From NCBI RefSeq assembly GCF_047663525.1, contig NC_092602.1:2363501-2427500 (forward strand): a DNA stretch of 64,000 nucleotides, in the 5' to 3' direction. Position 1 is the first letter of the stretch. Each line of letters opens with the position of its first letter. This document shows, piece by piece, positions 2,471 through 59,478 of the stretch. A model generated the notes under the pieces. The model was not told where the DNA came from. It searched no databases and worked only from the letters and a program-made list of their open reading frames with translations. A program made the position numbers and the translations under genes. The stretch comes from Anas platyrhynchos (lineage: Eukaryota > Chordata > Aves > Anseriformes > Anatidae).

Positions 2471-2580
2471 TGCTAAAATGCTGGAGTTGATATAAAACAG
2501 CATACTGACTGCTTGAATGTTGCCACATTTTCCCACACTTACTGATCTAATGCATTTTGTAGCCTGGTTTACTAAAAACC
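2471..2580 (-). CDS. TCTN1: TCTN1 coding exon 6, last exon in window
   Basis: A 110-nt exon encoding [10 protein letters not shown] through FYINSSILA, ending in phase 0 at the donor GTAAGT (2470-2465). FLVNQA and the following KC are conserved in tectonics. The next exon was not located between 1 and 2464 and presumably lies outside the window. Confidence 0.9.
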
Positions 2581-10110: not shown

Positions 10111-10114
10111 GGAG
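10111..10114. repeat. 5' target-site duplication GGAG of the array
   Basis: GGAG immediately precedes the first TG of LTR1, and the same four bases follow the last CA of LTR4 (31489-31492). A 4-bp duplication is typical of gammaretrovirus-like integration. Confidence 0.75.
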
Positions 10115-10687
10115 TGATTAAGGAGGTATTGGGGAGGCATTGGGGAGGCAAGGACAATCCCCAGACATGGACTGTGTATCTCGAAACAAGACACTGGAAC
10201 TCATGATAAGGAAGCGGCAGACGGACAGAGAAACAAATGGAAGGACTATAAATCTCAAAATTGGACATTGGAATTCATTATAAAGATACAACAAACGGAA
10301 GAATTGGCAACAACCAGCTCTCGCAATTAAGAAACGTGCCAATTCAGCAGATTCCTGACCAAAGGTGAAAAGTACACTGTGAGGAAGACTCGAGGTCTTC
10401 CTCCCAAAGACCCCTGCCCACGTCCCAAAGACCCCTGCCCACAATTCTTGGGAGGCTCTACGCAGGCGCAAGGTGCCAAAAGGCTAATTAGCATGAGAAG
10501 CGAGGGAAGGCGGGGATAGGTAATACATATGTATAGGCGCTTGTAGAATATTGATAGATTGATTGTATAAATTCAAGACTGCTTTCCGCTTTGGGTATGC
10601 ACGATAGGTGGAGAGATCCCCCGTGCATCCAGCGCTGCAATAAAGAATATACCACTTAAAGGAATTTCGGCTTCGATCTTTGAATCA
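10115..10687 (+). repeat. LTR1 (5' LTR of the array)
   Basis: A 573-bp LTR bounded by TG...CA. The U3 holds a perfect 20-bp direct repeat (10402-10421 and 10423-10442). A TATAAA box is at 10566-10571 and the polyadenylation signal AATAAA is at 10639-10644, after the GCGCTGC motif. The right border is fixed by comparison with LTR4, whose match stops at the same CA. Confidence 0.93.
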
Positions 10688-10690
10688 ATC

Positions 10691-10708
10691 TGGCACCCCA
10701 GATGGGAC
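10691..10708 (+). other. Primer-binding site, copy 1, likely tRNA-Arg(CCU)
   Basis: The 18 bases TGGCACCCCAGATGGGAC begin three bases after LTR1. Their complement ends in TGCCA, as a tRNA 3' end with added CCA should. It resembles the acceptor/T-arm end of vertebrate tRNA-Arg(CCU); this assignment is from memory. Equivalent sites are at 17625-17642 and 24559-24576. Confidence 0.6.
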
Positions 10709-11453
10709 TACCTCTCTGCCGGTCCGCAGGACCCGCTGGGGACAGGACTCCCTAGGGTACCCCCGGGATTTCCCGGAGGGACTCCTCGACTCACCGGATC
10801 ACTGCGGAGGCAGACAAGGACCCCATCATTGTAAGTGAGTATACTCTTTATTCTGGTTTGGTTTTCTGGTAGACCGGTCATCTGGGACTGTCCAGTAAGT
10901 CGGAAGGTGACTTCTGCAGGACAGTGTTTGGTATATACTTTGTGGTTAGTACCACAAGTATATCTGGGGACCTTGAGGTCCATCTGGATCTGGAACTGTC
11001 TGTAAGTCAGAAGGTGATCTTCTGCGAGGCAGTGTTTGGTATATACTTTGTGGTAAGCACCATAAGTATATTTGGGGACCTTAAGGAAAGAGCTCGCTTT
11101 AAGGTCCATCTGGAATTGTGTTGTTTATTTCGGTTTTCTGACTCATGGAGTATGGTATTTAACTCTGGTTATTGTTACTGTGATTTTGGCTATTTTTTTG
11201 GTGGTAATAGTAGGTTCGTGGCATTGTTATAAGAAAGATATCGTTATGGTGTTACACAGTTCGGTTTTCTGACTTATCGCATGTGGAATTTGACTCTGAC
11301 TATTGTTATTGTGATTTTAGCAATATTGCTGGTAATAGTAGCTTTGTGACATCGCTACTGAAAGATATTGCGTGCCTGTAACTTTGTGAGTGATACGTTT
11401 TTGTGATACGCTTTTGTAAGTAACACGTGTATTCTGAAAGTGTAAACTGGAAA
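10709..11453 (+). other. Provirus leader with splice donor and duplicated blocks, copy 1
   Basis: Untranslated leader between the primer site and gag. A strong donor-like GTAAGT starts at 10831 and could splice to env. Two diverged tandem duplications are visible. Block A is at about 10879-10980 and again at 10981-11109, sharing GTTTGGTATATACTTTGTGG. Block B is at about 11131-11261 and again at 11262-11375, each opening with CGGTTTTCTGACT. Confidence 0.6.
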
Positions 11454-12384
11454 ATGGGGGGGCGAGTAAGCAGTGAAATTCCTAAGAAAAGTGCGTTAGG
11501 ATGTGTTTTGAGTCACTGGAAGGATATTGGAGGATCTGCCGGTGGAAGTGTGAACAGGAAAACATTGATAAAATATTGTAATCAATGGTGGCCGCTTTAT
11601 AAGCTGGAATGTGGAGAAAAGTGGCCCCTAAATGGAACTTTAAACTCTAATGTTTTGCTACAGTTAATGTTGGTTTTGAGAAGGAGAATAGGATGAAATG
11701 TTGTATACTGATGTTGTTTCAGCATCTTGGTGGGAAAAGGTACGGAATTAAGTTGGCCCCTGACTGAGCCTTTGATGTTGGCATTAGAGAAGTACAGGCT
11801 GGAGAAAGATAAAGGAAGTGTTAAAAGGGTTGTTGAAAGTGTTAAAGGTGTTTGAAGTTGAATGAGCAGGGAAAGAGGATGTAGGAATGTTAATAGTTCT
11901 GCCTCTGCTCTAGGCAGAGATCTTAAAATCATGGGTGTTAGCCCTTTGGGGCAAATGGATCATGATGGATCCGAGAGAGAGTTGTTATGGAAACAGAAAA
12001 ACAGTTAACTCTTAAAACAACCTGAGTTCATGTGCGAGCTCAGATTACCGATGGGACCGCTCAGGGAACTGTGAACAACTGCATTCCCCTGACCGACCCC
12101 ACTGAGACCCTAATCATCCCTAAAATTATGAACGGCTAAGTAAATACTAAAATATGGATGAATTGGGAATTGAGAATATGCTTCCAACAAGGTCTAAAAG
12201 AAACCCCTATGGAATTTTTGGACCAACTCTGAAATGTAATGAAAATAAATAAATAAATAAATAAAACAAACGGTTTGGACCTGGCTTCGGAGGACAAATT
12301 GAGTAGCCTTTTTCTAGGGTAATCATTGGTCCCTGATTTCAACAGGAATAACGAGGACCTGGGGAATCTACCCTAGCGGATCCT
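11454..12384 (+). pseudogene. gag remnant, copy 1
   Basis: Gag would encode the structural proteins of the particle. The ATG at 11454 opens a myristoylation-type N-terminus (MGGRVSS). A matrix-like segment follows (HWKDIGG, CNQWWPLYKLE, LLQLMLVLRRR) and runs to a stop at 11694. Matrix sequence then resumes in another frame and ends at further stops, so the gene is frameshifted. A major-homology-region-like stretch, QGLKETPMEFLDQL, is at 12188-12229 and stops at TGA 12230. No CCHC zinc knuckle was seen. The three copies share these breaks. Confidence 0.75.
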
Positions 12385-12599
12385 TCACTGATTATAATAA
12401 AGATAGGGGAGGAATGGAAGTGAAATTTCTTATTGATATGGGGCAACGTATTCAGTTCTAAATCAAGCATTAATGCCTTTACGGAATGATTATGTTAACG
12501 TAAAAGGGTGTAACCGAAAAGGCTTATTTTTGTGAACCTTTGAAATACAAGTTGGGGAAATGTTATATATGGAGTGGTAATTCGTGTCGAGAAAATGGT

Positions 12600-12821
12600 T
12601 GATATTAACAAAGAAGGGTGATTCAGGAGACTCCATGCAGTCTGGGGTTTCTTGTTCTCCAGGTGGTTTCTTGTTCTCCAGCCGTTAAGGCATGGATGTT
12701 TCTGGGTGTTTGCTGTTGTTGTTACATTCAAAGTTGTTTGACTAATTAAACAGTTGTTTTGAAAAGAACTGCTGTGGAGAGAAGGGTATTAGAGGGGAGC
12801 CTGCTTTTAAAAAAAAAAAAA

Positions 12822-12853
<32 letters not shown>

Positions 12854-13160
12854 ACTATGAAGTTACATCGGTACAGAAGCAGGAAAAAGAAGTGAAGAGG
12901 AACAGGCTGGCAGAATGGGGACTGTTAAGTTATGGAACTCAAAGGATTGTTTGTTACCTATCCTGATTGTATGTATGTATAGGCATACTCGGGTTATTAT
13001 GTAAAGCAATGTTCTGTATACATGTATTTAGAACGTTTGATGTTTGTGTGTGCATGTTGGTGGAGCGTAGACTCCCTGCACACCCAGCGCTGTTTACTTG
13101 CCTTTTATATACCTTTTAGAAATATTTGTTTTATAAATATTACAAAATTCAGACCTCATT
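12600..13160 (+). mobile_element. Probable nested LTR-like insert inside pro, copy 1
   Basis: This segment interrupts the protease. Near 13055-13120 it has GGTGGAGCG...CCCAGCGCTG followed by TATATACC, which resembles the R/U5 part of the array's own LTR (GGTGGAGAG...TCCAGCGCTG, then ATATACC) but is clearly diverged. It also carries A13-C-A30 at 12809-12852. The exact ends and a target duplication could not be fixed, so the call is tentative. Equivalents begin at about 19534 and 26468. Confidence 0.4.
12809..12852 (+). repeat. Long A-run, copy 1
   Basis: Thirteen A, one C, thirty A. Copy 2 (19743-19786) is the same length. Copy 3 (26677-26719) has twenty-nine A after the C, the only length difference among the three internal regions that was noticed. 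Confidence 0.9.
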
Positions 13161-13229
13161 TATAACAGGAAACAAATGGGGATACATAGGTTTTTATATC
13201 TACCTGGATCTCCAAAATCTCTATTAGGT

Positions 13230-15875
13230 TGAGATCTGTTAGAACAATTAGAAGCAGAAATTATCTTCGAAAAAAAAGAAAAATGGAATTAAGGATAGGA
13301 GAAGAACAACTAATAAATGTGTTAAGCCTGGCACTAATACAAACCGACCCTAAAAGTGAAATACCCTTAGAGATCATAAACCAAGTATATCCAGGAGTTT
13401 GGGCCACTGAAGTCTCTGGAAGAGCTAAAAATGTGACCCCAATAATTATTAAATTAAAGCCAGGAGAGAAACCCGTTAAGGTTAAGTAATATCCTTTGAG
13501 GATAGAAGATAGGAAAGGAATTAAAGAGATAATTGATAAATTTTTACAGTATGGATTATTGATTGAATGTGAATCAGAATACAATATACCCATATTGCCA
13601 ATTAAAAAGGCAGATGAAAAGGCTATAGGTTAATTCAGGATTTGAGGGCCATAAGTAAAATCACTGAGGATATACATCCAGTAGTGGCAAACCCTTATAC
13701 TTTGCCGACTAAATTAAAGAATAGTCAAGTCTGGTTTACCGTACTGGATTTAAAAGACGCCTTCTTCTGCCTAGGCTTAGCCACAGAAAGCCAAAACCTA
13801 TTTGCCTTTGAATGGGAAAATCCCAATTCAGGCAGAAAGACGCAGCTTACGTGGACATTACTACCTCAAGGATTCAAGAATAGCCCCACTATTTTTGGAA
13901 ACCAATTAGCAAGGGAACTCGAAACATGGATGCCTCCAGACACTGAAGGTGCTTTGTTACAATATGTAGATGATCTCTTAATAGCTACCGAGACTAAAGG
14001 GAGCTGTATTCAATGGACTATAAGTTTTCTTAATTTCTGGGTTTAAAATGGATATCAAGTCTCTTGACAGAAAGTCCAGCTGTCTCAACAAAGTGTGACC
14101 TATCTGGGATTTGAAATTTCGGGAGGACAACGAGAACTAGGAACTGAACATAAGGAAGTCATTTGCCGGACTCCAGAACCTCAAACGGTAAAGGAGCTAC
14201 AAACCTTTTTAGGAATGACAGGTTGGTGTCGCCTTTGGATTTATAATTATGGACGATTGGTAAAGCCTCTATGTGAATTGATAAAGATTAACCAGTCAAA
14301 GTTAGTCTGGACTGGAGAAGCACAAAAAGTCTTTAAACAACTTAAACAAGAATTGATGATTTTAAAATATCAAGCAATATTAGTAGAACAAGATGATGTG
14401 GGAATTGTGGTCATTAACATCGTAAATCCAGCTTCTTTCCTTAGTGGAACTCTGGATCAACCCATAACCCATGATTGTATAGAAACAATGGAGACTGTGT
14501 ATTCTAATCGACCCGATCTTAAGGAAGAACTTTTAGAAGATGCTGACGAATCTTGGTATACTGATGGAAGCAGCTTTGTGAAACAAGGACAACGTAAGGC
14601 AGGGTACGCCATTACAACCACTCAACAGGTAATCAAGTCCAAACCATTACCCCTGGGACGTCCACCCAGAAAGCAGAGACAATTGCTCTTATGCGAGCAC
14701 TGGAACTAGCAGCAGGAAGGAAAATAAATATTTGGACAGATTCTAAATATACATTCGGCATGGTACATGCTCATGGAGCAATTTGGAAAGAAGAAATTTT
14801 AAAACTGTTAGAGGCTGTAAAACAACCAGAAAAGGTAGCTATCATGCATTGTCAGGGACACCAAAAGGGGAACACCGATTTTGAAATTGGAAATCGATTG
14901 GCAAAGGCTAAGCGGGCAGCTGAAATAACTGAGGTGAAGGCATTGTCTTTGATACCAGACGGTAAAATCCAAACTATATCCAAATTATACAAAAGAAGAC
15001 TTAAAATTTGGAATAATCAGTAAAGGAAATTATTCGGGGCAACTGTGGCAAATTGATTTTTCAGAACTCCCTAGAAAAGGGGGGTATTGTTATTTACTGG
15101 TTCTGACTGACATGATTTCAGGAAGGCCTGAAGCCTTTCCCTGTCGAACAAACAAAGCAAGAAGAAGTGGTTAAAGTCTTGTTAAATGAAATAATACCAT
15201 GCTTTGGGATTCTAGTAGCAATGTCTTCTGATAGAGTTTCACATTTTTGTGTGCAAGTGGTACAACAGATAAGTAAGATTCTAAAGATATTCTAAAGACA
15301 ACTGCATACTCTTTATAGACCGCAGGCAAGTGGACAGGTAGAAAAAATGAAACATTTAATTAAACAACAAATAGCTAAAATCGGACAAGAATCTAATTTG
15401 TCATGACCTCAATCCCTCCCTTTAGCATTACTTAGAATTTGAGTTAAACCTAGAATAAAAGGGAATTTGAGTCCCTTTGAAATCTTATATGGAAGGCCGT
15501 ATCCATTTCTATTTAGTGGAGAGGATCGAACGCAGTTAGGATTAGAATATTTATATGCATATATAACTGAACTTCAGAAATAATTAAATAAAGTACATAA
15601 ATTTGTTCTCAGGACCTGGGCTAGATGGTTGGATCAACCAATCCACCCTTTTAAGCTCAGGGATTATATATATAAAGACTTTTTCAGGACAACCCCTAGA
15701 GGAAAAACGGAAGGAAAGTGGACGGGACCATACCAGGTATTACTGAACACACACCGCCATTAAGATTAAGGAGCAAGCAGCTTGGATCCACGATTCAAAG
15801 GTGAAAAAGGCCCCGGCGAGGATATGGACCACGACCCCAATTGGACCAACAAAATTATGGTTTTCCAGATCCTAA
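13230..15875 (+). pseudogene. pol remnant (RT, RNase H, integrase), copy 1
   Basis: Reverse transcriptase is readable in pieces. N-terminal fingers run to a stop at 13487-13489. The palm is at 13642-14046 with LPQGFKNSP and the catalytic YVDD at 13963-13974. The connection region is in the frame 14095-14709 and includes YLGF and FLGMTGWCR. RNase H follows with YTDGS (catalytic Asp 14563-14565); a shift near 14660 moves the rest into the frame ending at 15023 (WTDSKY, HCQGHQKG). Integrase keeps three acidic positions (Asp 15055-15057, Asp 15230-15232, Glu 15341-15343) and a GPY motif at 15725-15733, but over several frames with stops. No HHCC zinc domain precedes it. The frame with the integrase tail overlaps the start of env, ending at TAA 15873-15875. 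Confidence 0.85.
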
Positions 15876-17011
15876 TGATTGCAGGGGTGTGGTTCTCAGA
15901 TTCGGGGTGGGCAGTTTGGGATGAGAACTTACACCTGTCCCTGATACAAACAATTTCTCAAGTAATTAATAAGACAAACTGTTGGGTATGCACCCATCTG
16001 CCACAGCATGGGAATAAGGGTGTATCGTTAATCAGGATTCCCTTGCCTGCAAACTTACCTTGGACTAATTTGTGGGAAAACACATCTTGGGGTCAAAAAT
16101 ATGAAGAAGTTTTGGAACTAGAAGTTAGTAGCTTCGTGCCATTGGAATCTTACTATGTATGTGTACAAAGGTGTAACCCGCCTAAGGGTATGGGAAAACA
16201 GGATTGTATAAATACGGGTACTACTTATGTGGGAAATCAGACATCTTGTAATCAAACAATTGATATTAGTACAACTAGCAGTTGGGCAAATTCAACCAGC
16301 TGGCCAGTTCCAGAAGGAAAAGGGTGGTATTGGCTATGCAATGATACAGCCCGTAAGGTCTTGCCCGAGAACTGGAAGGGAACTTGCACTCTTGGAGCAG
16401 TAGTCCCCAGTATGACAGTACATGATGTAGTGCCTCGAGGTTACTTGAGAAATCATATCTGGAGAATTAGACGAAAAATTAACAATCCATTGATAGAGAG
16501 ACACACCGCTTTTCATAGTTTTGTTCGATGGTTTATCCCATGGTTAGGAGTGAATGAATTGGAAAAGGCGATAGTTAATATTTCTGCAATTATAGAGAAG
16601 TTAGAAAACAAAACTCTGGATGCTATAAAGGCTCAACAAGAAGAGATATCTAGTTTATCACAGGTAGTATTACAAAATCGGGTGGCCCTAGACTTGTTAC
16701 TGGCCGCTCAAGGGGGAGTCTGTACAGTAATAAATACAAGTTGTTGTATGTATGTAGATCAGAGTGGAAGGATCTCTACCGACCTGGAAGAAATATGGAA
16801 GCAGACAAGGGTCCTACATGAGATCAGTAAAGATGATCTTTCATGGAGTTTTAGTGAAATATGGAATAAGTTAACCGCCTGGTTGCCCAACTTCCAATGG
16901 TGGGAACAAGTGTTCATTGCTCTAATCACATTAGTAGTGTTAGGAATATTTGTGTGCATGTTGTTTAGATGCCTGCTTTGTTGTGTTACTGTAAATAATG
17001 AAAGTATCTGA
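15824..17011 (+). CDS. env: Intact env open reading frame, copy 1
   Basis: A 395-codon gamma-type retroviral envelope glycoprotein frame. The first ATG is at 15824, and an in-frame stop lies upstream at 15767-15769. In order (residue numbers from this ATG) it shows a hydrophobic signal-like segment at about 10-27, CWVC at 53-56 in the surface subunit, many N-X-S/T sites, a furin-type RIRR at 214-217, a coiled-coil region, an immunosuppressive-domain-like stretch, and CX6CC at 300-308. A transmembrane helix follows at about 363-381, then a Cys-rich short tail. The surface part, about 217 residues, is short for this family, so parts of a receptor-binding domain may be missing. No internal stop or frameshift is visible. 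Whether it is expressed or fusogenic is unknown. Confidence 0.88.
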
Positions 17012-17028
17012 TGCAAAAGAATTTGCAT

Positions 17029-17047
17029 GGGAAAAGAAAAGGGGGGA
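17029..17047 (+). other. Polypurine tract before LTR2
   Basis: An all-purine run (GGGAAAAGAAAAGGGGGGA) ends one base before the TG of LTR2, as expected for the plus-strand primer. Repeated at 23963-23981 and 30896-30914. Confidence 0.85.
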
Positions 17048-17048
17048 T

Positions 17049-17621
17049 TGATTAAGGAGGTATTGGGGAGGCATTGGGGAGGCAAGGACAATCCCCAGAC
17101 ATGGACTGTGTATCTCGAAACAAGACACTGGAACTCATGATAAGGAAGCGGCAGACGGACAGAGAAACAAATGGAAGGACTATAAATCTCAAAATTGGAC
17201 ATTGGAATTCATTATAAAGATACAACAAACGGAAGAATTGGCAACAACCAGCTCTCGCAATTAAGAAACGTGCCAATTCAGCAGATTCCTGACCAAAGGT
17301 GAAAAGTACACTGTGAGGAAGACTCGAGGTCTTCCTCCCAAAGACCCCTGCCCACGTCCCAAAGACCCCTGCCCACAATTCTTGGGAGGCTCTACGCAGG
17401 CGCAAGGTGCCAAAAGGCTAATTAGCATGAGAAGCGAGGGAAGGCGGGGATAGGTAATACATATGTATAGGCACTTGTAGAATATTGATAGATTGATTGT
17501 ATAAATTCAAGACTGCTTTCCGCTTTGGGTATGCACGATAGGTGGAGAGATCCCCCGTGCATCCAGCGCTGCAATAAAGAATATACCACTTAAAGGAATT
17601 TCGGCTTCGATCTTTGAATCA
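17049..17621 (+). repeat. LTR2 (shared by copies 1 and 2)
   Basis: Same 573 bp as LTR1, with one visible substitution: A at 17473 where LTR1, LTR3 and LTR4 have G. No target duplication flanks it. It passes directly from the copy 1 polypurine tract into the copy 2 primer-binding site. Confidence 0.93.
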
Positions 17622-17624
17622 ATC

Positions 17625-18387
17625 TGGCACCCCAGATGGGACTACCTCTCTGCCGGTCCGCAGGACCCGCTGGGGACAGGACTCCCTAGGGTACCCCCGG
17701 GATTTCCCGGAGGGACTCCTCGACTCACCGGATCACTGCGGAGGCAGACAAGGACCCCATCATTGTAAGTGAGTATACTCTTTATTCTGGTTTGGTTTTC
17801 TGGTAGACCGGTCATCTGGGACTGTCCAGTAAGTCGGAAGGTGACTTCTGCAGGACAGTGTTTGGTATATACTTTGTGGTTAGTACCACAAGTATATCTG
17901 GGGACCTTGAGGTCCATCTGGATCTGGAACTGTCTGTAAGTCAGAAGGTGATCTTCTGCGAGGCAGTGTTTGGTATATACTTTGTGGTAAGCACCATAAG
18001 TATATTTGGGGACCTTAAGGAAAGAGCTCGCTTTAAGGTCCATCTGGAATTGTGTTGTTTATTTCGGTTTTCTGACTCATGGAGTATGGTATTTAACTCT
18101 GGTTATTGTTACTGTGATTTTGGCTATTTTTTTGGTGGTAATAGTAGGTTCGTGGCATTGTTATAAGAAAGATATCGTTATGGTGTTACACAGTTCGGTT
18201 TTCTGACTTATCGCATGTGGAATTTGACTCTGACTATTGTTATTGTGATTTTAGCAATATTGCTGGTAATAGTAGCTTTGTGACATCGCTACTGAAAGAT
18301 ATTGCGTGCCTGTAACTTTGTGAGTGATACGTTTTTGTGATACGCTTTTGTAAGTAACACGTGTATTCTGAAAGTGTAAACTGGAAA
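17625..18387 (+). other. Primer-binding site and leader, copy 2
   Basis: The primer site is 17625-17642 and the donor-like GTAAGT starts at 17765. The same two duplicated leader blocks are present, shifted by 6934 from copy 1. Confidence 0.6.
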
Positions 18388-19318
18388 ATGGGGGGGCGAG
18401 TAAGCAGTGAAATTCCTAAGAAAAGTGCGTTAGGATGTGTTTTGAGTCACTGGAAGGATATTGGAGGATCTGCCGGTGGAAGTGTGAACAGGAAAACATT
18501 GATAAAATATTGTAATCAATGGTGGCCGCTTTATAAGCTGGAATGTGGAGAAAAGTGGCCCCTAAATGGAACTTTAAACTCTAATGTTTTGCTACAGTTA
18601 ATGTTGGTTTTGAGAAGGAGAATAGGATGAAATGTTGTATACTGATGTTGTTTCAGCATCTTGGTGGGAAAAGGTACGGAATTAAGTTGGCCCCTGACTG
18701 AGCCTTTGATGTTGGCATTAGAGAAGTACAGGCTGGAGAAAGATAAAGGAAGTGTTAAAAGGGTTGTTGAAAGTGTTAAAGGTGTTTGAAGTTGAATGAG
18801 CAGGGAAAGAGGATGTAGGAATGTTAATAGTTCTGCCTCTGCTCTAGGCAGAGATCTTAAAATCATGGGTGTTAGCCCTTTGGGGCAAATGGATCATGAT
18901 GGATCCGAGAGAGAGTTGTTATGGAAACAGAAAAACAGTTAACTCTTAAAACAACCTGAGTTCATGTGCGAGCTCAGATTACCGATGGGACCGCTCAGGG
19001 AACTGTGAACAACTGCATTCCCCTGACCGACCCCACTGAGACCCTAATCATCCCTAAAATTATGAACGGCTAAGTAAATACTAAAATATGGATGAATTGG
19101 GAATTGAGAATATGCTTCCAACAAGGTCTAAAAGAAACCCCTATGGAATTTTTGGACCAACTCTGAAATGTAATGAAAATAAATAAATAAATAAATAAAA
19201 CAAACGGTTTGGACCTGGCTTCGGAGGACAAATTGAGTAGCCTTTTTCTAGGGTAATCATTGGTCCCTGATTTCAACAGGAATAACGAGGACCTGGGGAA
19301 TCTACCCTAGCGGATCCT
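18388..19318 (+). pseudogene. gag remnant, copy 2
   Basis: Identical to copy 1 as far as read. The ATG at 18388 gives the matrix-like segment to a stop at 18628, then come shifted frames and the major-homology-like stretch at 19122-19163. Confidence 0.75.
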
Positions 19319-19755
19319 TCACTGATTATAATAAAGATAGGGGAGGAATGGAAGTGAAATTTCTTATTGATATGGGGCAACGTATTCAGTTCTAAATCAA
19401 GCATTAATGCCTTTACGGAATGATTATGTTAACGTAAAAGGGTGTAACCGAAAAGGCTTATTTTTGTGAACCTTTGAAATACAAGTTGGGGAAATGTTAT
19501 ATATGGAGTGGTAATTCGTGTCGAGAAAATGGTTGATATTAACAAAGAAGGGTGATTCAGGAGACTCCATGCAGTCTGGGGTTTCTTGTTCTCCAGGTGG
19601 TTTCTTGTTCTCCAGCCGTTAAGGCATGGATGTTTCTGGGTGTTTGCTGTTGTTGTTACATTCAAAGTTGTTTGACTAATTAAACAGTTGTTTTGAAAAG
19701 AACTGCTGTGGAGAGAAGGGTATTAGAGGGGAGCCTGCTTTTAAAAAAAAAAAAA

Positions 19756-19787
<32 letters not shown>

Positions 19788-20204
19788 ACTATGAAGTTAC
19801 ATCGGTACAGAAGCAGGAAAAAGAAGTGAAGAGGAACAGGCTGGCAGAATGGGGACTGTTAAGTTATGGAACTCAAAGGATTGTTTGTTACCTATCCTGA
19901 TTGTATGTATGTATAGGCATACTCGGGTTATTATGTAAAGCAATGTTCTGTATACATGTATTTAGAACGTTTGATGTTTGTGTGTGCATGTTGGTGGAGC
20001 GTAGACTCCCTGCACACCCAGCGCTGTTTACTTGCCTTTTATATACCTTTTAGAAATATTTGTTTTATAAATATTACAAAATTCAGACCTCATTTATAAC
20101 AGGAAACAAATGGGGATACATAGGTTTTTATATCTACCTGGATCTCCAAAATCTCTATTAGGTTGAGATCTGTTAGAACAATTAGAAGCAGAAATTATCT
20201 TCGA
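19319..20204 (+). pseudogene. pro remnant with insert, copy 2
   Basis: Carries the same DMGQ active-site change and the same LTR-like insert with its A-run (19743-19786) as copy 1. The insert was therefore present before the array expanded. Confidence 0.62.
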
Positions 20205-22809
20205 AAAAAAAGAAAAATGGAATTAAGGATAGGAGAAGAACAACTAATAAATGTGTTAAGCCTGGCACTAATACAAACCGACCCTAAAAGTGAAATACCC
20301 TTAGAGATCATAAACCAAGTATATCCAGGAGTTTGGGCCACTGAAGTCTCTGGAAGAGCTAAAAATGTGACCCCAATAATTATTAAATTAAAGCCAGGAG
20401 AGAAACCCGTTAAGGTTAAGTAATATCCTTTGAGGATAGAAGATAGGAAAGGAATTAAAGAGATAATTGATAAATTTTTACAGTATGGATTATTGATTGA
20501 ATGTGAATCAGAATACAATATACCCATATTGCCAATTAAAAAGGCAGATGAAAAGGCTATAGGTTAATTCAGGATTTGAGGGCCATAAGTAAAATCACTG
20601 AGGATATACATCCAGTAGTGGCAAACCCTTATACTTTGCCGACTAAATTAAAGAATAGTCAAGTCTGGTTTACCGTACTGGATTTAAAAGACGCCTTCTT
20701 CTGCCTAGGCTTAGCCACAGAAAGCCAAAACCTATTTGCCTTTGAATGGGAAAATCCCAATTCAGGCAGAAAGACGCAGCTTACGTGGACATTACTACCT
20801 CAAGGATTCAAGAATAGCCCCACTATTTTTGGAAACCAATTAGCAAGGGAACTCGAAACATGGATGCCTCCAGACACTGAAGGTGCTTTGTTACAATATG
20901 TAGATGATCTCTTAATAGCTACCGAGACTAAAGGGAGCTGTATTCAATGGACTATAAGTTTTCTTAATTTCTGGGTTTAAAATGGATATCAAGTCTCTTG
21001 ACAGAAAGTCCAGCTGTCTCAACAAAGTGTGACCTATCTGGGATTTGAAATTTCGGGAGGACAACGAGAACTAGGAACTGAACATAAGGAAGTCATTTGC
21101 CGGACTCCAGAACCTCAAACGGTAAAGGAGCTACAAACCTTTTTAGGAATGACAGGTTGGTGTCGCCTTTGGATTTATAATTATGGACGATTGGTAAAGC
21201 CTCTATGTGAATTGATAAAGATTAACCAGTCAAAGTTAGTCTGGACTGGAGAAGCACAAAAAGTCTTTAAACAACTTAAACAAGAATTGATGATTTTAAA
21301 ATATCAAGCAATATTAGTAGAACAAGATGATGTGGGAATTGTGGTCATTAACATCGTAAATCCAGCTTCTTTCCTTAGTGGAACTCTGGATCAACCCATA
21401 ACCCATGATTGTATAGAAACAATGGAGACTGTGTATTCTAATCGACCCGATCTTAAGGAAGAACTTTTAGAAGATGCTGACGAATCTTGGTATACTGATG
21501 GAAGCAGCTTTGTGAAACAAGGACAACGTAAGGCAGGGTACGCCATTACAACCACTCAACAGGTAATCAAGTCCAAACCATTACCCCTGGGACGTCCACC
21601 CAGAAAGCAGAGACAATTGCTCTTATGCGAGCACTGGAACTAGCAGCAGGAAGGAAAATAAATATTTGGACAGATTCTAAATATACATTCGGCATGGTAC
21701 ATGCTCATGGAGCAATTTGGAAAGAAGAAATTTTAAAACTGTTAGAGGCTGTAAAACAACCAGAAAAGGTAGCTATCATGCATTGTCAGGGACACCAAAA
21801 GGGGAACACCGATTTTGAAATTGGAAATCGATTGGCAAAGGCTAAGCGGGCAGCTGAAATAACTGAGGTGAAGGCATTGTCTTTGATACCAGACGGTAAA
21901 ATCCAAACTATATCCAAATTATACAAAAGAAGACTTAAAATTTGGAATAATCAGTAAAGGAAATTATTCGGGGCAACTGTGGCAAATTGATTTTTCAGAA
22001 CTCCCTAGAAAAGGGGGGTATTGTTATTTACTGGTTCTGACTGACATGATTTCAGGAAGGCCTGAAGCCTTTCCCTGTCGAACAAACAAAGCAAGAAGAA
22101 GTGGTTAAAGTCTTGTTAAATGAAATAATACCATGCTTTGGGATTCTAGTAGCAATGTCTTCTGATAGAGTTTCACATTTTTGTGTGCAAGTGGTACAAC
22201 AGATAAGTAAGATTCTAAAGATATTCTAAAGACAACTGCATACTCTTTATAGACCGCAGGCAAGTGGACAGGTAGAAAAAATGAAACATTTAATTAAACA
22301 ACAAATAGCTAAAATCGGACAAGAATCTAATTTGTCATGACCTCAATCCCTCCCTTTAGCATTACTTAGAATTTGAGTTAAACCTAGAATAAAAGGGAAT
22401 TTGAGTCCCTTTGAAATCTTATATGGAAGGCCGTATCCATTTCTATTTAGTGGAGAGGATCGAACGCAGTTAGGATTAGAATATTTATATGCATATATAA
22501 CTGAACTTCAGAAATAATTAAATAAAGTACATAAATTTGTTCTCAGGACCTGGGCTAGATGGTTGGATCAACCAATCCACCCTTTTAAGCTCAGGGATTA
22601 TATATATAAAGACTTTTTCAGGACAACCCCTAGAGGAAAAACGGAAGGAAAGTGGACGGGACCATACCAGGTATTACTGAACACACACCGCCATTAAGAT
22701 TAAGGAGCAAGCAGCTTGGATCCACGATTCAAAGGTGAAAAAGGCCCCGGCGAGGATATGGACCACGACCCCAATTGGACCAACAAAATTATGGTTTTCC
22801 AGATCCTAA
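20164..22809 (+). pseudogene. pol remnant, copy 2
   Basis: The same broken reverse transcriptase, RNase H and integrase as copy 1, with YVDD at 20897-20908. The open pieces 20576-20980, 21029-21643 and 21625-21957 translate identically to copy 1. Confidence 0.85.
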
Positions 22810-23945
22810 TGATTGCAGGGGTGTGGTTCTCAGATTCGGGGTGGGCAGTTTGGGATGAGAACTTACACCTGTCCCTGATACAAACAATTTCTCAAGTAAT
22901 TAATAAGACAAACTGTTGGGTATGCACCCATCTGCCACAGCATGGGAATAAGGGTGTATCGTTAATCAGGATTCCCTTGCCTGCAAACTTACCTTGGACT
23001 AATTTGTGGGAAAACACATCTTGGGGTCAAAAATATGAAGAAGTTTTGGAACTAGAAGTTAGTAGCTTCGTGCCATTGGAATCTTACTATGTATGTGTAC
23101 AAAGGTGTAACCCGCCTAAGGGTATGGGAAAACAGGATTGTATAAATACGGGTACTACTTATGTGGGAAATCAGACATCTTGTAATCAAACAATTGATAT
23201 TAGTACAACTAGCAGTTGGGCAAATTCAACCAGCTGGCCAGTTCCAGAAGGAAAAGGGTGGTATTGGCTATGCAATGATACAGCCCGTAAGGTCTTGCCC
23301 GAGAACTGGAAGGGAACTTGCACTCTTGGAGCAGTAGTCCCCAGTATGACAGTACATGATGTAGTGCCTCGAGGTTACTTGAGAAATCATATCTGGAGAA
23401 TTAGACGAAAAATTAACAATCCATTGATAGAGAGACACACCGCTTTTCATAGTTTTGTTCGATGGTTTATCCCATGGTTAGGAGTGAATGAATTGGAAAA
23501 GGCGATAGTTAATATTTCTGCAATTATAGAGAAGTTAGAAAACAAAACTCTGGATGCTATAAAGGCTCAACAAGAAGAGATATCTAGTTTATCACAGGTA
23601 GTATTACAAAATCGGGTGGCCCTAGACTTGTTACTGGCCGCTCAAGGGGGAGTCTGTACAGTAATAAATACAAGTTGTTGTATGTATGTAGATCAGAGTG
23701 GAAGGATCTCTACCGACCTGGAAGAAATATGGAAGCAGACAAGGGTCCTACATGAGATCAGTAAAGATGATCTTTCATGGAGTTTTAGTGAAATATGGAA
23801 TAAGTTAACCGCCTGGTTGCCCAACTTCCAATGGTGGGAACAAGTGTTCATTGCTCTAATCACATTAGTAGTGTTAGGAATATTTGTGTGCATGTTGTTT
23901 AGATGCCTGCTTTGTTGTGTTACTGTAAATAATGAAAGTATCTGA
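22758..23945 (+). CDS. env: Intact env open reading frame, copy 2
   Basis: A 395-codon frame with the same protein sequence as the copy 1 frame. It keeps CWVC, RIRR, CX6CC, the transmembrane helix and the Cys-rich tail. It lies between LTR2 and LTR3, so it has its own complete U3 promoter upstream and an AATAAA downstream. Confidence 0.88.
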
Positions 23946-23982
23946 TGCAAAAGAATTTGCATGGGAAAAGAAAAGGGGGGAT

Positions 23983-24555
23983 TGATTAAGGAGGTATTGG
24001 GGAGGCATTGGGGAGGCAAGGACAATCCCCAGACATGGACTGTGTATCTCGAAACAAGACACTGGAACTCATGATAAGGAAGCGGCAGACGGACAGAGAA
24101 ACAAATGGAAGGACTATAAATCTCAAAATTGGACATTGGAATTCATTATAAAGATACAACAAACGGAAGAATTGGCAACAACCAGCTCTCGCAATTAAGA
24201 AACGTGCCAATTCAGCAGATTCCTGACCAAAGGTGAAAAGTACACTGTGAGGAAGACTCGAGGTCTTCCTCCCAAAGACCCCTGCCCACGTCCCAAAGAC
24301 CCCTGCCCACAATTCTTGGGAGGCTCTACGCAGGCGCAAGGTGCCAAAAGGCTAATTAGCATGAGAAGCGAGGGAAGGCGGGGATAGGTAATACATATGT
24401 ATAGGCGCTTGTAGAATATTGATAGATTGATTGTATAAATTCAAGACTGCTTTCCGCTTTGGGTATGCACGATAGGTGGAGAGATCCCCCGTGCATCCAG
24501 CGCTGCAATAAAGAATATACCACTTAAAGGAATTTCGGCTTCGATCTTTGAATCA
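23983..24555 (+). repeat. LTR3 (shared by copies 2 and 3)
   Basis: 573 bp, with G at 24407 where LTR2 has A. No flanking target duplication, which again shows that the copies share LTRs and did not integrate separately. Confidence 0.93.
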
Positions 24556-24558
24556 ATC

Positions 24559-25321
24559 TGGCACCCCAGATGGGACTACCTCTCTGCCGGTCCGCAGGAC
24601 CCGCTGGGGACAGGACTCCCTAGGGTACCCCCGGGATTTCCCGGAGGGACTCCTCGACTCACCGGATCACTGCGGAGGCAGACAAGGACCCCATCATTGT
24701 AAGTGAGTATACTCTTTATTCTGGTTTGGTTTTCTGGTAGACCGGTCATCTGGGACTGTCCAGTAAGTCGGAAGGTGACTTCTGCAGGACAGTGTTTGGT
24801 ATATACTTTGTGGTTAGTACCACAAGTATATCTGGGGACCTTGAGGTCCATCTGGATCTGGAACTGTCTGTAAGTCAGAAGGTGATCTTCTGCGAGGCAG
24901 TGTTTGGTATATACTTTGTGGTAAGCACCATAAGTATATTTGGGGACCTTAAGGAAAGAGCTCGCTTTAAGGTCCATCTGGAATTGTGTTGTTTATTTCG
25001 GTTTTCTGACTCATGGAGTATGGTATTTAACTCTGGTTATTGTTACTGTGATTTTGGCTATTTTTTTGGTGGTAATAGTAGGTTCGTGGCATTGTTATAA
25101 GAAAGATATCGTTATGGTGTTACACAGTTCGGTTTTCTGACTTATCGCATGTGGAATTTGACTCTGACTATTGTTATTGTGATTTTAGCAATATTGCTGG
25201 TAATAGTAGCTTTGTGACATCGCTACTGAAAGATATTGCGTGCCTGTAACTTTGTGAGTGATACGTTTTTGTGATACGCTTTTGTAAGTAACACGTGTAT
25301 TCTGAAAGTGTAAACTGGAAA
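24559..25321 (+). other. Primer-binding site and leader, copy 3
   Basis: The primer site is 24559-24576 and the donor-like GTAAGT starts at 24699. The leader duplications are as in copy 1. Confidence 0.6.
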
Positions 25322-26252
25322 ATGGGGGGGCGAGTAAGCAGTGAAATTCCTAAGAAAAGTGCGTTAGGATGTGTTTTGAGTCACTGGAAGGATATTGGAG
25401 GATCTGCCGGTGGAAGTGTGAACAGGAAAACATTGATAAAATATTGTAATCAATGGTGGCCGCTTTATAAGCTGGAATGTGGAGAAAAGTGGCCCCTAAA
25501 TGGAACTTTAAACTCTAATGTTTTGCTACAGTTAATGTTGGTTTTGAGAAGGAGAATAGGATGAAATGTTGTATACTGATGTTGTTTCAGCATCTTGGTG
25601 GGAAAAGGTACGGAATTAAGTTGGCCCCTGACTGAGCCTTTGATGTTGGCATTAGAGAAGTACAGGCTGGAGAAAGATAAAGGAAGTGTTAAAAGGGTTG
25701 TTGAAAGTGTTAAAGGTGTTTGAAGTTGAATGAGCAGGGAAAGAGGATGTAGGAATGTTAATAGTTCTGCCTCTGCTCTAGGCAGAGATCTTAAAATCAT
25801 GGGTGTTAGCCCTTTGGGGCAAATGGATCATGATGGATCCGAGAGAGAGTTGTTATGGAAACAGAAAAACAGTTAACTCTTAAAACAACCTGAGTTCATG
25901 TGCGAGCTCAGATTACCGATGGGACCGCTCAGGGAACTGTGAACAACTGCATTCCCCTGACCGACCCCACTGAGACCCTAATCATCCCTAAAATTATGAA
26001 CGGCTAAGTAAATACTAAAATATGGATGAATTGGGAATTGAGAATATGCTTCCAACAAGGTCTAAAAGAAACCCCTATGGAATTTTTGGACCAACTCTGA
26101 AATGTAATGAAAATAAATAAATAAATAAATAAAACAAACGGTTTGGACCTGGCTTCGGAGGACAAATTGAGTAGCCTTTTTCTAGGGTAATCATTGGTCC
26201 CTGATTTCAACAGGAATAACGAGGACCTGGGGAATCTACCCTAGCGGATCCT
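25322..26252 (+). pseudogene. gag remnant, copy 3
   Basis: The ATG at 25322, the stop at 25562 and the downstream breaks match copies 1 and 2. Confidence 0.75.
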
Positions 26253-27137
26253 TCACTGATTATAATAAAGATAGGGGAGGAATGGAAGTGAAATTTCTTA
26301 TTGATATGGGGCAACGTATTCAGTTCTAAATCAAGCATTAATGCCTTTACGGAATGATTATGTTAACGTAAAAGGGTGTAACCGAAAAGGCTTATTTTTG
26401 TGAACCTTTGAAATACAAGTTGGGGAAATGTTATATATGGAGTGGTAATTCGTGTCGAGAAAATGGTTGATATTAACAAAGAAGGGTGATTCAGGAGACT
26501 CCATGCAGTCTGGGGTTTCTTGTTCTCCAGGTGGTTTCTTGTTCTCCAGCCGTTAAGGCATGGATGTTTCTGGGTGTTTGCTGTTGTTGTTACATTCAAA
26601 GTTGTTTGACTAATTAAACAGTTGTTTTGAAAAGAACTGCTGTGGAGAGAAGGGTATTAGAGGGGAGCCTGCTTTTAAAAAAAAAAAAACAAAAAAAAAA
26701 AAAAAAAAAAAAAAAAAAACACTATGAAGTTACATCGGTACAGAAGCAGGAAAAAGAAGTGAAGAGGAACAGGCTGGCAGAATGGGGACTGTTAAGTTAT
26801 GGAACTCAAAGGATTGTTTGTTACCTATCCTGATTGTATGTATGTATAGGCATACTCGGGTTATTATGTAAAGCAATGTTCTGTATACATGTATTTAGAA
26901 CGTTTGATGTTTGTGTGTGCATGTTGGTGGAGCGTAGACTCCCTGCACACCCAGCGCTGTTTACTTGCCTTTTATATACCTTTTAGAAATATTTGTTTTA
27001 TAAATATTACAAAATTCAGACCTCATTTATAACAGGAAACAAATGGGGATACATAGGTTTTTATATCTACCTGGATCTCCAAAATCTCTATTAGGTTGAG
27101 ATCTGTTAGAACAATTAGAAGCAGAAATTATCTTCGA
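26253..27137 (+). pseudogene. pro remnant with insert, copy 3
   Basis: Same structure as the other copies. The A-run (26677-26719) is one base shorter, which makes this period 6933. Confidence 0.62.
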
Positions 27138-29742
27138 AAAAAAAGAAAAATGGAATTAAGGATAGGAGAAGAACAACTAATAAATGTGTTAAGCCTGGCA
27201 CTAATACAAACCGACCCTAAAAGTGAAATACCCTTAGAGATCATAAACCAAGTATATCCAGGAGTTTGGGCCACTGAAGTCTCTGGAAGAGCTAAAAATG
27301 TGACCCCAATAATTATTAAATTAAAGCCAGGAGAGAAACCCGTTAAGGTTAAGTAATATCCTTTGAGGATAGAAGATAGGAAAGGAATTAAAGAGATAAT
27401 TGATAAATTTTTACAGTATGGATTATTGATTGAATGTGAATCAGAATACAATATACCCATATTGCCAATTAAAAAGGCAGATGAAAAGGCTATAGGTTAA
27501 TTCAGGATTTGAGGGCCATAAGTAAAATCACTGAGGATATACATCCAGTAGTGGCAAACCCTTATACTTTGCCGACTAAATTAAAGAATAGTCAAGTCTG
27601 GTTTACCGTACTGGATTTAAAAGACGCCTTCTTCTGCCTAGGCTTAGCCACAGAAAGCCAAAACCTATTTGCCTTTGAATGGGAAAATCCCAATTCAGGC
27701 AGAAAGACGCAGCTTACGTGGACATTACTACCTCAAGGATTCAAGAATAGCCCCACTATTTTTGGAAACCAATTAGCAAGGGAACTCGAAACATGGATGC
27801 CTCCAGACACTGAAGGTGCTTTGTTACAATATGTAGATGATCTCTTAATAGCTACCGAGACTAAAGGGAGCTGTATTCAATGGACTATAAGTTTTCTTAA
27901 TTTCTGGGTTTAAAATGGATATCAAGTCTCTTGACAGAAAGTCCAGCTGTCTCAACAAAGTGTGACCTATCTGGGATTTGAAATTTCGGGAGGACAACGA
28001 GAACTAGGAACTGAACATAAGGAAGTCATTTGCCGGACTCCAGAACCTCAAACGGTAAAGGAGCTACAAACCTTTTTAGGAATGACAGGTTGGTGTCGCC
28101 TTTGGATTTATAATTATGGACGATTGGTAAAGCCTCTATGTGAATTGATAAAGATTAACCAGTCAAAGTTAGTCTGGACTGGAGAAGCACAAAAAGTCTT
28201 TAAACAACTTAAACAAGAATTGATGATTTTAAAATATCAAGCAATATTAGTAGAACAAGATGATGTGGGAATTGTGGTCATTAACATCGTAAATCCAGCT
28301 TCTTTCCTTAGTGGAACTCTGGATCAACCCATAACCCATGATTGTATAGAAACAATGGAGACTGTGTATTCTAATCGACCCGATCTTAAGGAAGAACTTT
28401 TAGAAGATGCTGACGAATCTTGGTATACTGATGGAAGCAGCTTTGTGAAACAAGGACAACGTAAGGCAGGGTACGCCATTACAACCACTCAACAGGTAAT
28501 CAAGTCCAAACCATTACCCCTGGGACGTCCACCCAGAAAGCAGAGACAATTGCTCTTATGCGAGCACTGGAACTAGCAGCAGGAAGGAAAATAAATATTT
28601 GGACAGATTCTAAATATACATTCGGCATGGTACATGCTCATGGAGCAATTTGGAAAGAAGAAATTTTAAAACTGTTAGAGGCTGTAAAACAACCAGAAAA
28701 GGTAGCTATCATGCATTGTCAGGGACACCAAAAGGGGAACACCGATTTTGAAATTGGAAATCGATTGGCAAAGGCTAAGCGGGCAGCTGAAATAACTGAG
28801 GTGAAGGCATTGTCTTTGATACCAGACGGTAAAATCCAAACTATATCCAAATTATACAAAAGAAGACTTAAAATTTGGAATAATCAGTAAAGGAAATTAT
28901 TCGGGGCAACTGTGGCAAATTGATTTTTCAGAACTCCCTAGAAAAGGGGGGTATTGTTATTTACTGGTTCTGACTGACATGATTTCAGGAAGGCCTGAAG
29001 CCTTTCCCTGTCGAACAAACAAAGCAAGAAGAAGTGGTTAAAGTCTTGTTAAATGAAATAATACCATGCTTTGGGATTCTAGTAGCAATGTCTTCTGATA
29101 GAGTTTCACATTTTTGTGTGCAAGTGGTACAACAGATAAGTAAGATTCTAAAGATATTCTAAAGACAACTGCATACTCTTTATAGACCGCAGGCAAGTGG
29201 ACAGGTAGAAAAAATGAAACATTTAATTAAACAACAAATAGCTAAAATCGGACAAGAATCTAATTTGTCATGACCTCAATCCCTCCCTTTAGCATTACTT
29301 AGAATTTGAGTTAAACCTAGAATAAAAGGGAATTTGAGTCCCTTTGAAATCTTATATGGAAGGCCGTATCCATTTCTATTTAGTGGAGAGGATCGAACGC
29401 AGTTAGGATTAGAATATTTATATGCATATATAACTGAACTTCAGAAATAATTAAATAAAGTACATAAATTTGTTCTCAGGACCTGGGCTAGATGGTTGGA
29501 TCAACCAATCCACCCTTTTAAGCTCAGGGATTATATATATAAAGACTTTTTCAGGACAACCCCTAGAGGAAAAACGGAAGGAAAGTGGACGGGACCATAC
29601 CAGGTATTACTGAACACACACCGCCATTAAGATTAAGGAGCAAGCAGCTTGGATCCACGATTCAAAGGTGAAAAAGGCCCCGGCGAGGATATGGACCACG
29701 ACCCCAATTGGACCAACAAAATTATGGTTTTCCAGATCCTAA
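27097..29742 (+). pseudogene. pol remnant, copy 3
   Basis: YVDD at 27830-27841. The open pieces 27509-27913, 27962-28576 and 28558-28890 are the same as in the other copies. Confidence 0.85.
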
Positions 29743-30878
29743 TGATTGCAGGGGTGTGGTTCTCAGATTCGGGGTGGGCAGTTTGGGATGAGAACTTACA
29801 CCTGTCCCTGATACAAACAATTTCTCAAGTAATTAATAAGACAAACTGTTGGGTATGCACCCATCTGCCACAGCATGGGAATAAGGGTGTATCGTTAATC
29901 AGGATTCCCTTGCCTGCAAACTTACCTTGGACTAATTTGTGGGAAAACACATCTTGGGGTCAAAAATATGAAGAAGTTTTGGAACTAGAAGTTAGTAGCT
30001 TCGTGCCATTGGAATCTTACTATGTATGTGTACAAAGGTGTAACCCGCCTAAGGGTATGGGAAAACAGGATTGTATAAATACGGGTACTACTTATGTGGG
30101 AAATCAGACATCTTGTAATCAAACAATTGATATTAGTACAACTAGCAGTTGGGCAAATTCAACCAGCTGGCCAGTTCCAGAAGGAAAAGGGTGGTATTGG
30201 CTATGCAATGATACAGCCCGTAAGGTCTTGCCCGAGAACTGGAAGGGAACTTGCACTCTTGGAGCAGTAGTCCCCAGTATGACAGTACATGATGTAGTGC
30301 CTCGAGGTTACTTGAGAAATCATATCTGGAGAATTAGACGAAAAATTAACAATCCATTGATAGAGAGACACACCGCTTTTCATAGTTTTGTTCGATGGTT
30401 TATCCCATGGTTAGGAGTGAATGAATTGGAAAAGGCGATAGTTAATATTTCTGCAATTATAGAGAAGTTAGAAAACAAAACTCTGGATGCTATAAAGGCT
30501 CAACAAGAAGAGATATCTAGTTTATCACAGGTAGTATTACAAAATCGGGTGGCCCTAGACTTGTTACTGGCCGCTCAAGGGGGAGTCTGTACAGTAATAA
30601 ATACAAGTTGTTGTATGTATGTAGATCAGAGTGGAAGGATCTCTACCGACCTGGAAGAAATATGGAAGCAGACAAGGGTCCTACATGAGATCAGTAAAGA
30701 TGATCTTTCATGGAGTTTTAGTGAAATATGGAATAAGTTAACCGCCTGGTTGCCCAACTTCCAATGGTGGGAACAAGTGTTCATTGCTCTAATCACATTA
30801 GTAGTGTTAGGAATATTTGTGTGCATGTTGTTTAGATGCCTGCTTTGTTGTGTTACTGTAAATAATGAAAGTATCTGA
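29691..30878 (+). CDS. env: Intact env open reading frame, copy 3
   Basis: A third 395-codon env frame, identical in translation to the other two. It is the copy nearest PPTC7, about 5.7 kb upstream of its start codon, and is followed by LTR4. Confidence 0.88.
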
Positions 30879-30915
30879 TGCAAAAGAATTTGCATGGGAA
30901 AAGAAAAGGGGGGAT

Positions 30916-31488
30916 TGATTAAGGAGGTATTGGGGAGGCATTGGGGAGGCAAGGACAATCCCCAGACATGGACTGTGTATCTCGAAACAAGACACTGGAA
31001 CTCATGATAAGGAAGCGGCAGACGGACAGAGAAACAAATGGAAGGACTATAAATCTCAAAATTGGACATTGGAATTCATTATAAAGATACAACAAACGGA
31101 AGAATTGGCAACAACCAGCTCTCGCAATTAAGAAACGTGCCAATTCAGCAGATTCCTGACCAAAGGTGAAAAGTACACTGTGAGGAAGACTCGAGGTCTT
31201 CCTCCCAAAGACCCCTGCCCACGTCCCAAAGACCCCTGCCCACAATTCTTGGGAGGCTCTACGCAGGCGCAAGGTGCCAAAAGGCTAATTAGCATGAGAA
31301 GCGAGGGAAGGCGGGGATAGGTAATACATATGTATAGGCGCTTGTAGAATATTGATAGATTGATTGTATAAATTCAAGACTGCTTTCCGCTTTGGGTATG
31401 CACGATAGGTGGAGAGATCCCCCGTGCATCCAGCGCTGCAATAAAGAATATACCACTTAAAGGAATTTCGGCTTCGATCTTTGAATCA
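30916..31488 (+). repeat. LTR4 (3' LTR of the array)
   Basis: 573 bp, and by eye the same as LTR1 at every position. It ends ...GAATCA and then joins host DNA with GGAG. This edge defines the LTR end. Its TATAAA and AATAAA are intact and point toward PPTC7. Confidence 0.93.
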
Positions 31489-31492
31489 GGAG
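31489..31492. repeat. 3' target-site duplication GGAG
   Basis: Matches 10111-10114. It is also the start of a 17-bp host direct repeat (separate entry). Confidence 0.75.
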
Positions 31493-31527
31493 CTGGATGA
31501 GTAAGAGGTAGGAGCTGGATGAGTAAG
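31489..31527 (+). repeat. 17-bp direct repeat at the 3' flank
   Basis: GGAGCTGGATGAGTAAG occurs at 31489-31505 and again at 31511-31527, separated by AGGTA. The second unit runs into TGAGTAAGGAGGTAT (31520-31534), which differs by one base from the first 15 bases of the LTR. Confidence 0.8.
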
Positions 31528-31534
31528 GAGGTAT

Positions 31535-36600: not shown

Positions 36601-36802
36601 ATGTTCTCGGTGCTGTCCTACGGCAGGCTGGTGGCCCGGGCGGTGCTGGGCGGCCTCTCGCAAACCGACTCCCGCGATTACAGCCTGGTGACGGCCAGCT
36701 GCGGCTTCGGCAAAGATTTCCGCAAGGGCATCCTGAAGAAAGGCATGTGCTACGGGGATGACGCCTGCTTCGTGGCCAGGCACCGCTCGGCTGATGTGTT
36801 GG
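36601..36802 (+). CDS. PPTC7: PPTC7 coding exon 1
   Basis: Residues 1-67 plus one base, from [15 protein letters not shown] to HRSADVL, with donor GTGAGT at 36803. It contains the targeting segment and the first acidic motif, YGDDACF. The start is the first ATG in this frame downstream of the GC-rich leader and matches the family start. Confidence 0.96.
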
Positions 36803-42714: not shown

Positions 42715-42767
<53 letters not shown>

Positions 42768-58300: not shown

Positions 58301-58910
58301 ACGGTACCATGACAGGTAATAATGCTCGCGGGAGTTGGGATTTCTGCAGCAGTGTTACTGGGTATTTGGGTGAAAAAGGGCTAAGATGTGGTGAATTGGA
58401 AAACTCTGTGGTTCTGTGCTACTTTTACGGCTATCTTTGGGAGACCTACAGCATACAGTTTCCCTCTAAATTTGCTTTCTTTGTGTTTCTAAAGAAGGTA
58501 CGGCAGATAAATAGAAGGGAAGAAAAAAGATTTTGGGACCAGACAGTTATGACTGAGTAAGGGAGAGGGGAGAGGTGAAGGTCTTGCAAAGCTGTAAAGT
58601 ATTTTGTGATGGAATCTCCATCTCTTGTAATGGACATCCTTTCTCCAGGAAGGAACCAGACTTTGTGCGTGTGTGTGTAGAAACAAACTGTATGAAGTAG
58701 TTCTTGCAAAGATAGCTGAAATAATGAAGCAAATCTGAGTCTGTATCTAATGAGGATGCTTTTTTGTTGTTGTTAAAATGAGACTATCATCTATGCTTAC
58801 ATAAGAGGCAATTATGTGAATTTCATGTCTGAGGTATAACTTATGCAGGAATAGTTCTGTAAATACATTTAAATGAATTGTAAAGATATTTAATAAATAT
58901 AGTATTTATA
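55332..58910 (+). other. PPTC7: PPTC7 3' UTR with candidate poly(A) signals
   Basis: Non-coding, AT-rich sequence downstream of the stop. AATAAA occurs near 56668 and at 57800-57805 and 58892-58897, so short and long forms of the 3' UTR are possible. A long UTR is usual for this gene in mammals. The true end cannot be decided from sequence alone. Confidence 0.45.
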
Positions 58911-59478
58911 CTAAAATGTGTTTTTTAAAGTAAAGTTGACTGCACAAATTCTGTTTGTTACTGCAGTGACGTTGCTGGTAGCACAGAGCTGCCCAGCCAC
59001 CACTTCTTGAGGTGTTTGGCTCTCGTTCAGAGCTCTGCGGTGTCCTCAAATCTGTCTGTAAATGATGCCATGCCCCACTACACAGAATTCCTCTGTAAGA
59101 GGTTGGCAAGCAGAGTAGCTATCTTTTAAAGCAACCAAAGATTAGAAATGTCAATATTTGAGTGTGACTTTGGAAATACTACATGGTAATTTTCTCTGCA
59201 AGCTTGTTTAGAAGTGAGCAAATGTACAGATCTCCAGCTCTGTTCAGTATAAATCACATTGATCCATTATCCTGCTGCACCAAAAAGCAGCTGTGGATGT
59301 GTTCTCCCCAGGAAAGTGGCTGCAAGCAGTTCTGTGGCTTGCTGAGATGTAGTGACCAGGGCCAGAGAGCCCTGTCGCTGACTCCCGCTGGAGGAGTTGA
59401 GGGAAGGGAAAAGAGCGATTCAAGGCTGAAACACAAGAACTCATAAGCCATGCTTTCAAATCATTTTTAATCACAATT
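58911..59478. other. Gap between the convergent PPTC7 and RAD9B 3' ends
   Basis: No gene or recognised repeat. The two transcription units probably end within a few hundred bases of each other here. Confidence 0.5.

Follow-up and report, generated by a model that had tools for sequence, protein, structure and literature searches.

Positions 10115-31488 of the window, that is, of the whole stretch of 64,000 nucleotides of Anas platyrhynchos DNA that was analysed, hold a head-to-tail array of 21,374 bp in which four long terminal repeats (LTRs) alternate with three internal regions of an endogenous retrovirus (ERV). The best explanation, and in our judgement a reasonably probable one, is a single integration of an already defective genome followed by very recent unequal recombination between LTRs.

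Architecture and edges of the array

In a comparison of the whole window with itself, matches peak at offsets of 6934, 6933, 13867, 13868 and 20801 bp. The unbroken match runs place LTR1 at 10115-10687, LTR2 at 17049-17621, LTR3 at 23983-24555 and LTR4 at 30916-31488, all on the plus strand. Every LTR is 573 bp long with the ends TGATT...AATCA; in LTR1, AATAAA stands at LTR position 525. The same runs delimit internal region 1 (10688-17048, 6361 bp), internal region 2 (17622-23982, 6361 bp) and internal region 3 (24556-30915, 6360 bp), also on the plus strand, and the starts of successive units are spaced by 6934, 6934 and 6933 bp. The array consists, in a single orientation, of n internal regions with n+1 LTRs. 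The coordinates, the 6934/6933 period and the layout of four LTRs and three internal regions given in the original prediction are reproduced to the base by these self-matches.

Comparison of the flanks finds the sequence GGAG abutting the array once on each side (unstranded; 10111-10114 on the left and 31489-31492 on the right). With lengths from 1 to 11 tried, 4 bp is the longest target duplication at the array edges, and the chance that two random flanking 4-mers agree is about 0.005. The duplication stands, as had been claimed, at the outermost edges only: at the inner junctions, polypurine tract, LTR and primer site follow one another directly, with no host DNA between them. Among 16-mers made of at least three kinds of base, none from the array was found again elsewhere in the window. 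The array in the sequence is not due to chance.

We note that a 22-bp repeat, in two copies at 31488-31533, begins at the right-hand edge of the array, where it takes in the GGAG duplication. Searches with Rfam (at the gathering threshold) and ARAGORN gave no match in the window.

Class of the element and its internal parts

Internal region 1 was searched against Pfam as 24 stop-to-stop pieces, one of which lies on the minus strand and reaches into LTR2. Three pieces pass the Pfam cut-off (RVT_1, RNase_H and TLV_coat); Gag_MA, a second RNase_H piece, rve and MLVIN_C are matched below it by four others, in an order that fits a gammaretrovirus-type genome. A further piece has no more than a weak and implausible match, to a beta-propeller family, and for 16 of the 24 there is no Pfam match; a match to capsid was not found among these pieces.

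The following parts of unit 1 are all on the plus strand. Three bases (10688-10690) separate the end of LTR1 from a candidate primer binding site (10691-10708, from reading the sequence), where two bases are usual; the site, which we take to match the 3' end of tRNA-Arg(CCU), recurs as an identical sequence after LTR2 and LTR3. By repeat search, the leader contains a 108-bp tandem duplication (10880-11086, 1.9 copies), present in all three units, and a poly(A) tract of 44 bases, including one C, lies between the gag and pol remnants (12809-12852). The gag remnant is that of the matrix protein (11424-11693; Gag_MA, E = 4.2e-4, 20.6 bits, below the cut-off of 30). An interpretation of the poly(A) tract as a retroposed host insert was left without support, the tract end and the next 22 bases having no match of at least 8 bases to 10688-12808.

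The pol remnants begin with a reverse transcriptase (RT) piece that has a stop at its end (13618-14043; RVT_1, E = 1.7e-17), followed by a piece spanning RT to RNase H (14068-14706; start of RNase_H, E = 0.0037, below the cut-off) and by an RNase H piece in a different frame (14598-15020; E = 6.9e-12). Downstream of these are an integrase core piece (14953-15171; rve, E = 7.2e-6, 26.6 bits, below the cut-off of 32.6) and a possible integrase C-terminal piece (15584-15760; MLVIN_C, E = 0.027, 14.6 bits, below the cut-off of 29.2). Between the recognisable pol pieces there are one stop and two frame changes, with a third change if the weak MLVIN_C match is right; these breaks are shared by all units, because the units are identical there. 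The open gag and pol that define a replication-competent provirus are absent.

The env frame is open in unit 1 (15824-17011, 395 amino acids and a stop from the first Met), with counterparts in internal region 2 (22758-23945) and internal region 3 (29691-30878), and is the sole long open retroviral frame in each unit. Its product matches TLV_coat, the gamma-type Env family (66.1 bits, cut-off 22.5, E = 3.4e-18). Directly before LTR2, reading of the sequence finds what we take to be the polypurine tract, followed by AT (17037-17048). Judged by its gamma-type Env, the element is classed as a gammaretrovirus-type (class I) ERV. The 4-bp target duplication of the array has the length usual for ERVs of this class.

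Relatives of the Env and Pol proteins

The search with Env returned 67 proteins, the best of which is from Anas zonorhyncha, belongs to a cluster of 27 sequences and shows 98% identity over 96%; the second-ranked relative is 79% identical. Proteins of A. platyrhynchos itself appear at rank 5 (92% over 69%) and rank 18 (86% over 61%). When the array Env is aligned with seven bird proteins, 147 of the 443 columns do not vary, and 8 of its 15 cysteines are likewise invariant. Like the array element, avian class I ERVs in two falcons, an eagle, the hoazin, a weaver and an owl have a short syncytin-like Env (387-420 amino acids, 58-69% identical to the array Env); these relatives were found as proteins, and the likeness compared is that of Env. 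Such a short Env seems, from these sequences, to be widespread in birds. An A. platyrhynchos protein (P0018) combines a different surface half with a transmembrane half nearly that of the array Env, a make-up that suggests recombination between duck ERV families.

The RT-RNase H piece has relatives in many birds. Among the best 120 of its 163 matches, the closest full-length relative is 81% identical over 93%, and shorter alignments are given by proteins of A. platyrhynchos (86% over 48%) and Cygnus olor (80% over 49%) and by another A. platyrhynchos protein (only 64% over 35%). The matches of these virus proteins point to a duck or another close relative among the anatids as the host. Relatives of the LTR DNA were found neither in a phage collection nor, for a 25-base LTR piece, in viral_contigs, both of which are unlikely homes of a bird ERV; a weak match of pol to L001 in viral_contigs (38% over 40 residues) was set aside.

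Genomic setting

The array lies between two divergent genes. To its left is a minus-strand exon near 8.1 kb, presumably of TCTN1, and to its right are plus-strand exons (36601-52354) that we take to be those of PPTC7 and that stand behind a CpG-rich region. Four pieces of the PPTC7-like exons were searched against Pfam: one matches PP2C just under the cut-off, another resembles SpoIIE weakly, and the remaining two are without a match. The PP2C-like piece also matches, over 55 residues, a PP2C phosphatase of the PDB. The array has the same orientation as the PPTC7-like gene, and LTR4 is positioned about 5 kb upstream of the first coding exon of that gene. The accessible part of a report on a mule duck assembly names neither PPTC7 nor TCTN1 (PMC11216606).

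Differences between units and age

The three units differ at two sites only. The first is a substitution private to LTR2 at 17473 (A, with G in the other three LTRs): among the six LTR pairs, each of the three involving LTR2 shows one base difference, and the three formed by the identical LTR1, LTR3 and LTR4 show 0 differences over 573 bp. The second is one base of the poly(A) tract, which measures 44, 44 and 43 bases in units 1, 2 and 3, unit 3 being one A short. Since the units are identical apart from these two sites, they have the gag-pol breaks, the leader duplication and the poly(A) tract in common, and descend from one copy.

For dating, a rate of 1.91e-9 per site per year was taken as used in the available text of PMC10989122. 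One substitution over about 21,375 bp gives an age of about 24,000 years for the amplification (95% range 0.6 to 136 thousand), and the identical outer LTRs give less than about 1.4 million years for the integration, if they are the ends of the original integration; both ages presume a clock and the absence of gene conversion between LTRs, which would make both look too young. The observed/expected CpG ratio stands at 0.64 for LTR1 and 0.45 for internal region 1, versus 0.23 and 0.37 in two flank stretches picked away from CpG-rich gene starts (1-7000 and 40001-60000, respectively), and this higher CpG content of the element agrees with youth. Because the provirus is so young and yet so damaged in gag and pol, it was probably defective already when it was copied, and carried by the proteins of a helper.

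Origin of the array

The combination of four LTRs with three internal regions, the clean inner junctions and the restriction of the target duplication to the outer edges support unequal exchange between LTRs. A class I ERV genome, defective but open in its short env, would have integrated once, leaving the 4-bp GGAG duplication, and misaligned LTR-LTR exchange between chromatids or homologues would have added units of one LTR plus one internal region, giving first two and then three internal regions with shared LTRs. Reciprocally, such an exchange would leave a solo LTR or a shortened array. The substitution in LTR2 and the change in the poly(A) tract may have arisen later, or may have been alleles. 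The original prediction had pointed to repeated unequal recombination between LTRs of one provirus; this origin fits every feature seen with the fewest steps, and is the likeliest though not a proven one, as an assembly miscount or a multimeric cDNA would leave the same sequence. The differences are too few to map any crossover point, and for this reason the exchange itself is something that we infer rather than see.

An assembly artefact would mean that the bird has one or two internal regions and that the assembler looped through the LTRs, perhaps joining two alleles that carry the G/A and poly(A) variants. The near-perfect identity expected of such a loop is what the units display, being alike except at two sites, of which one is the length of a homopolymer, and the 21.4-kb array is longer than many long reads; yet the base found in LTR2 is absent from the other three LTRs, and the flanks were found to hold no further part of the array, whose two ends fit one target duplication exactly. 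Assemblers, moreover, collapse such repeats more often than they expand them. We regard an artefact as unlikely, while giving it appreciable weight. That at least one extra unit is real is favoured by the base private to LTR2 and by the clean duplication at the outer edges; the number three is known from the assembly alone.

The same anatomy, down to the single outer duplication, would also be produced by a multimeric cDNA that arose through LTR-LTR recombination before integration and was inserted whole by integrase, or by the recombination of a later cDNA with the LTR of a provirus already in place, a process described for yeast Ty1. One or two errors of reverse transcription would account for the low number of differences. 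However, retroviruses do not usually integrate as trimers, and recombination with the cDNA of other family members should have imported variants, whereas only two variant sites are seen. An origin through cDNA is rated as improbable. Three independent integrations at or near one site have a negligible chance of being the answer, as six LTRs and separate duplications would be needed and nothing speaks in their favour, and independent or nested insertions were rejected on the lack of host DNA at the inner junctions.

Comparison with known systems

Tandem proviruses that share LTRs are a kind already known. At the human HERV-K(HML-2) loci 7p22.1 and 6q14.1, three LTRs with two internal regions are present in some people, and single and tandem forms differ between people, according to the accessible part of PMC11807958. 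Like the duck array, these loci have internal regions with a shared middle LTR; unlike it, they have three LTRs and two internal regions, and are human and betaretrovirus-like, HML-2 being related to mouse mammary tumour virus (PMC4149278, available in part). Among 89 intact Wukong elements of maize, three LTRs occur in 8, four in 5, and six and seven in 2, and most of the multi-LTR elements have target duplications, others being without. For their origin, unequal crossing over was suggested, and recombination between two adjacent elements, a route other than unequal exchange, was favoured as well (PMC4528315, in the portion available). Wukong elements are plant TRIM elements without coding capacity, unlike the ERV of the duck array. 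The likeness to the HML-2 and Wukong arrays was counted in favour of unequal exchange in the duck.

The expectation that more than two internal copies are rarely described is not contradicted for vertebrates by the literature covered, the human HML-2 loci having two, but in maize it meets Wukong elements with four, six and seven LTRs that are already in print. Among the matches listed, titles and abstract starts of the open-access literature name no vertebrate array with three internal regions. The accessible parts of PMC6298018, on solo-LTR formation through LTR exchange, and of PMC11067759, which puts the full-length ERVs of three duck genomes at 1,607 to 2,031, do not contain the word "tandem". 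In ducks, LTR-element insertions called Gypsy at IGF2BP1 (6945 bp) and MITF (6634 bp) have a breed-dependent frequency (PMC10989122, in its available part). Two LTR motifs of these insertions (same source) provide a weak test: neither is in the array, and elsewhere in the window one has a single occurrence and the other none.

Discussion

If real, this would be a vertebrate provirus array with three internal regions, one step past the published human loci with two, and would have tripled an open env frame between two host genes. The value of the array lies in its copy number and its youth, if these are confirmed by long reads. It is conceivable, although we hold it doubtful, that the copy number of the array varies in ducks alive today, with LTR exchange still adding and removing units, and that the array multiplies an open env frame of syncytin-like type upstream of the PPTC7-like gene, in numbers that may vary between breeds. 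LTR exchange is mostly visible as solo LTRs. A young array of this kind would, if real, present the gain side of LTR exchange, at a rate that could be measured across breeds.
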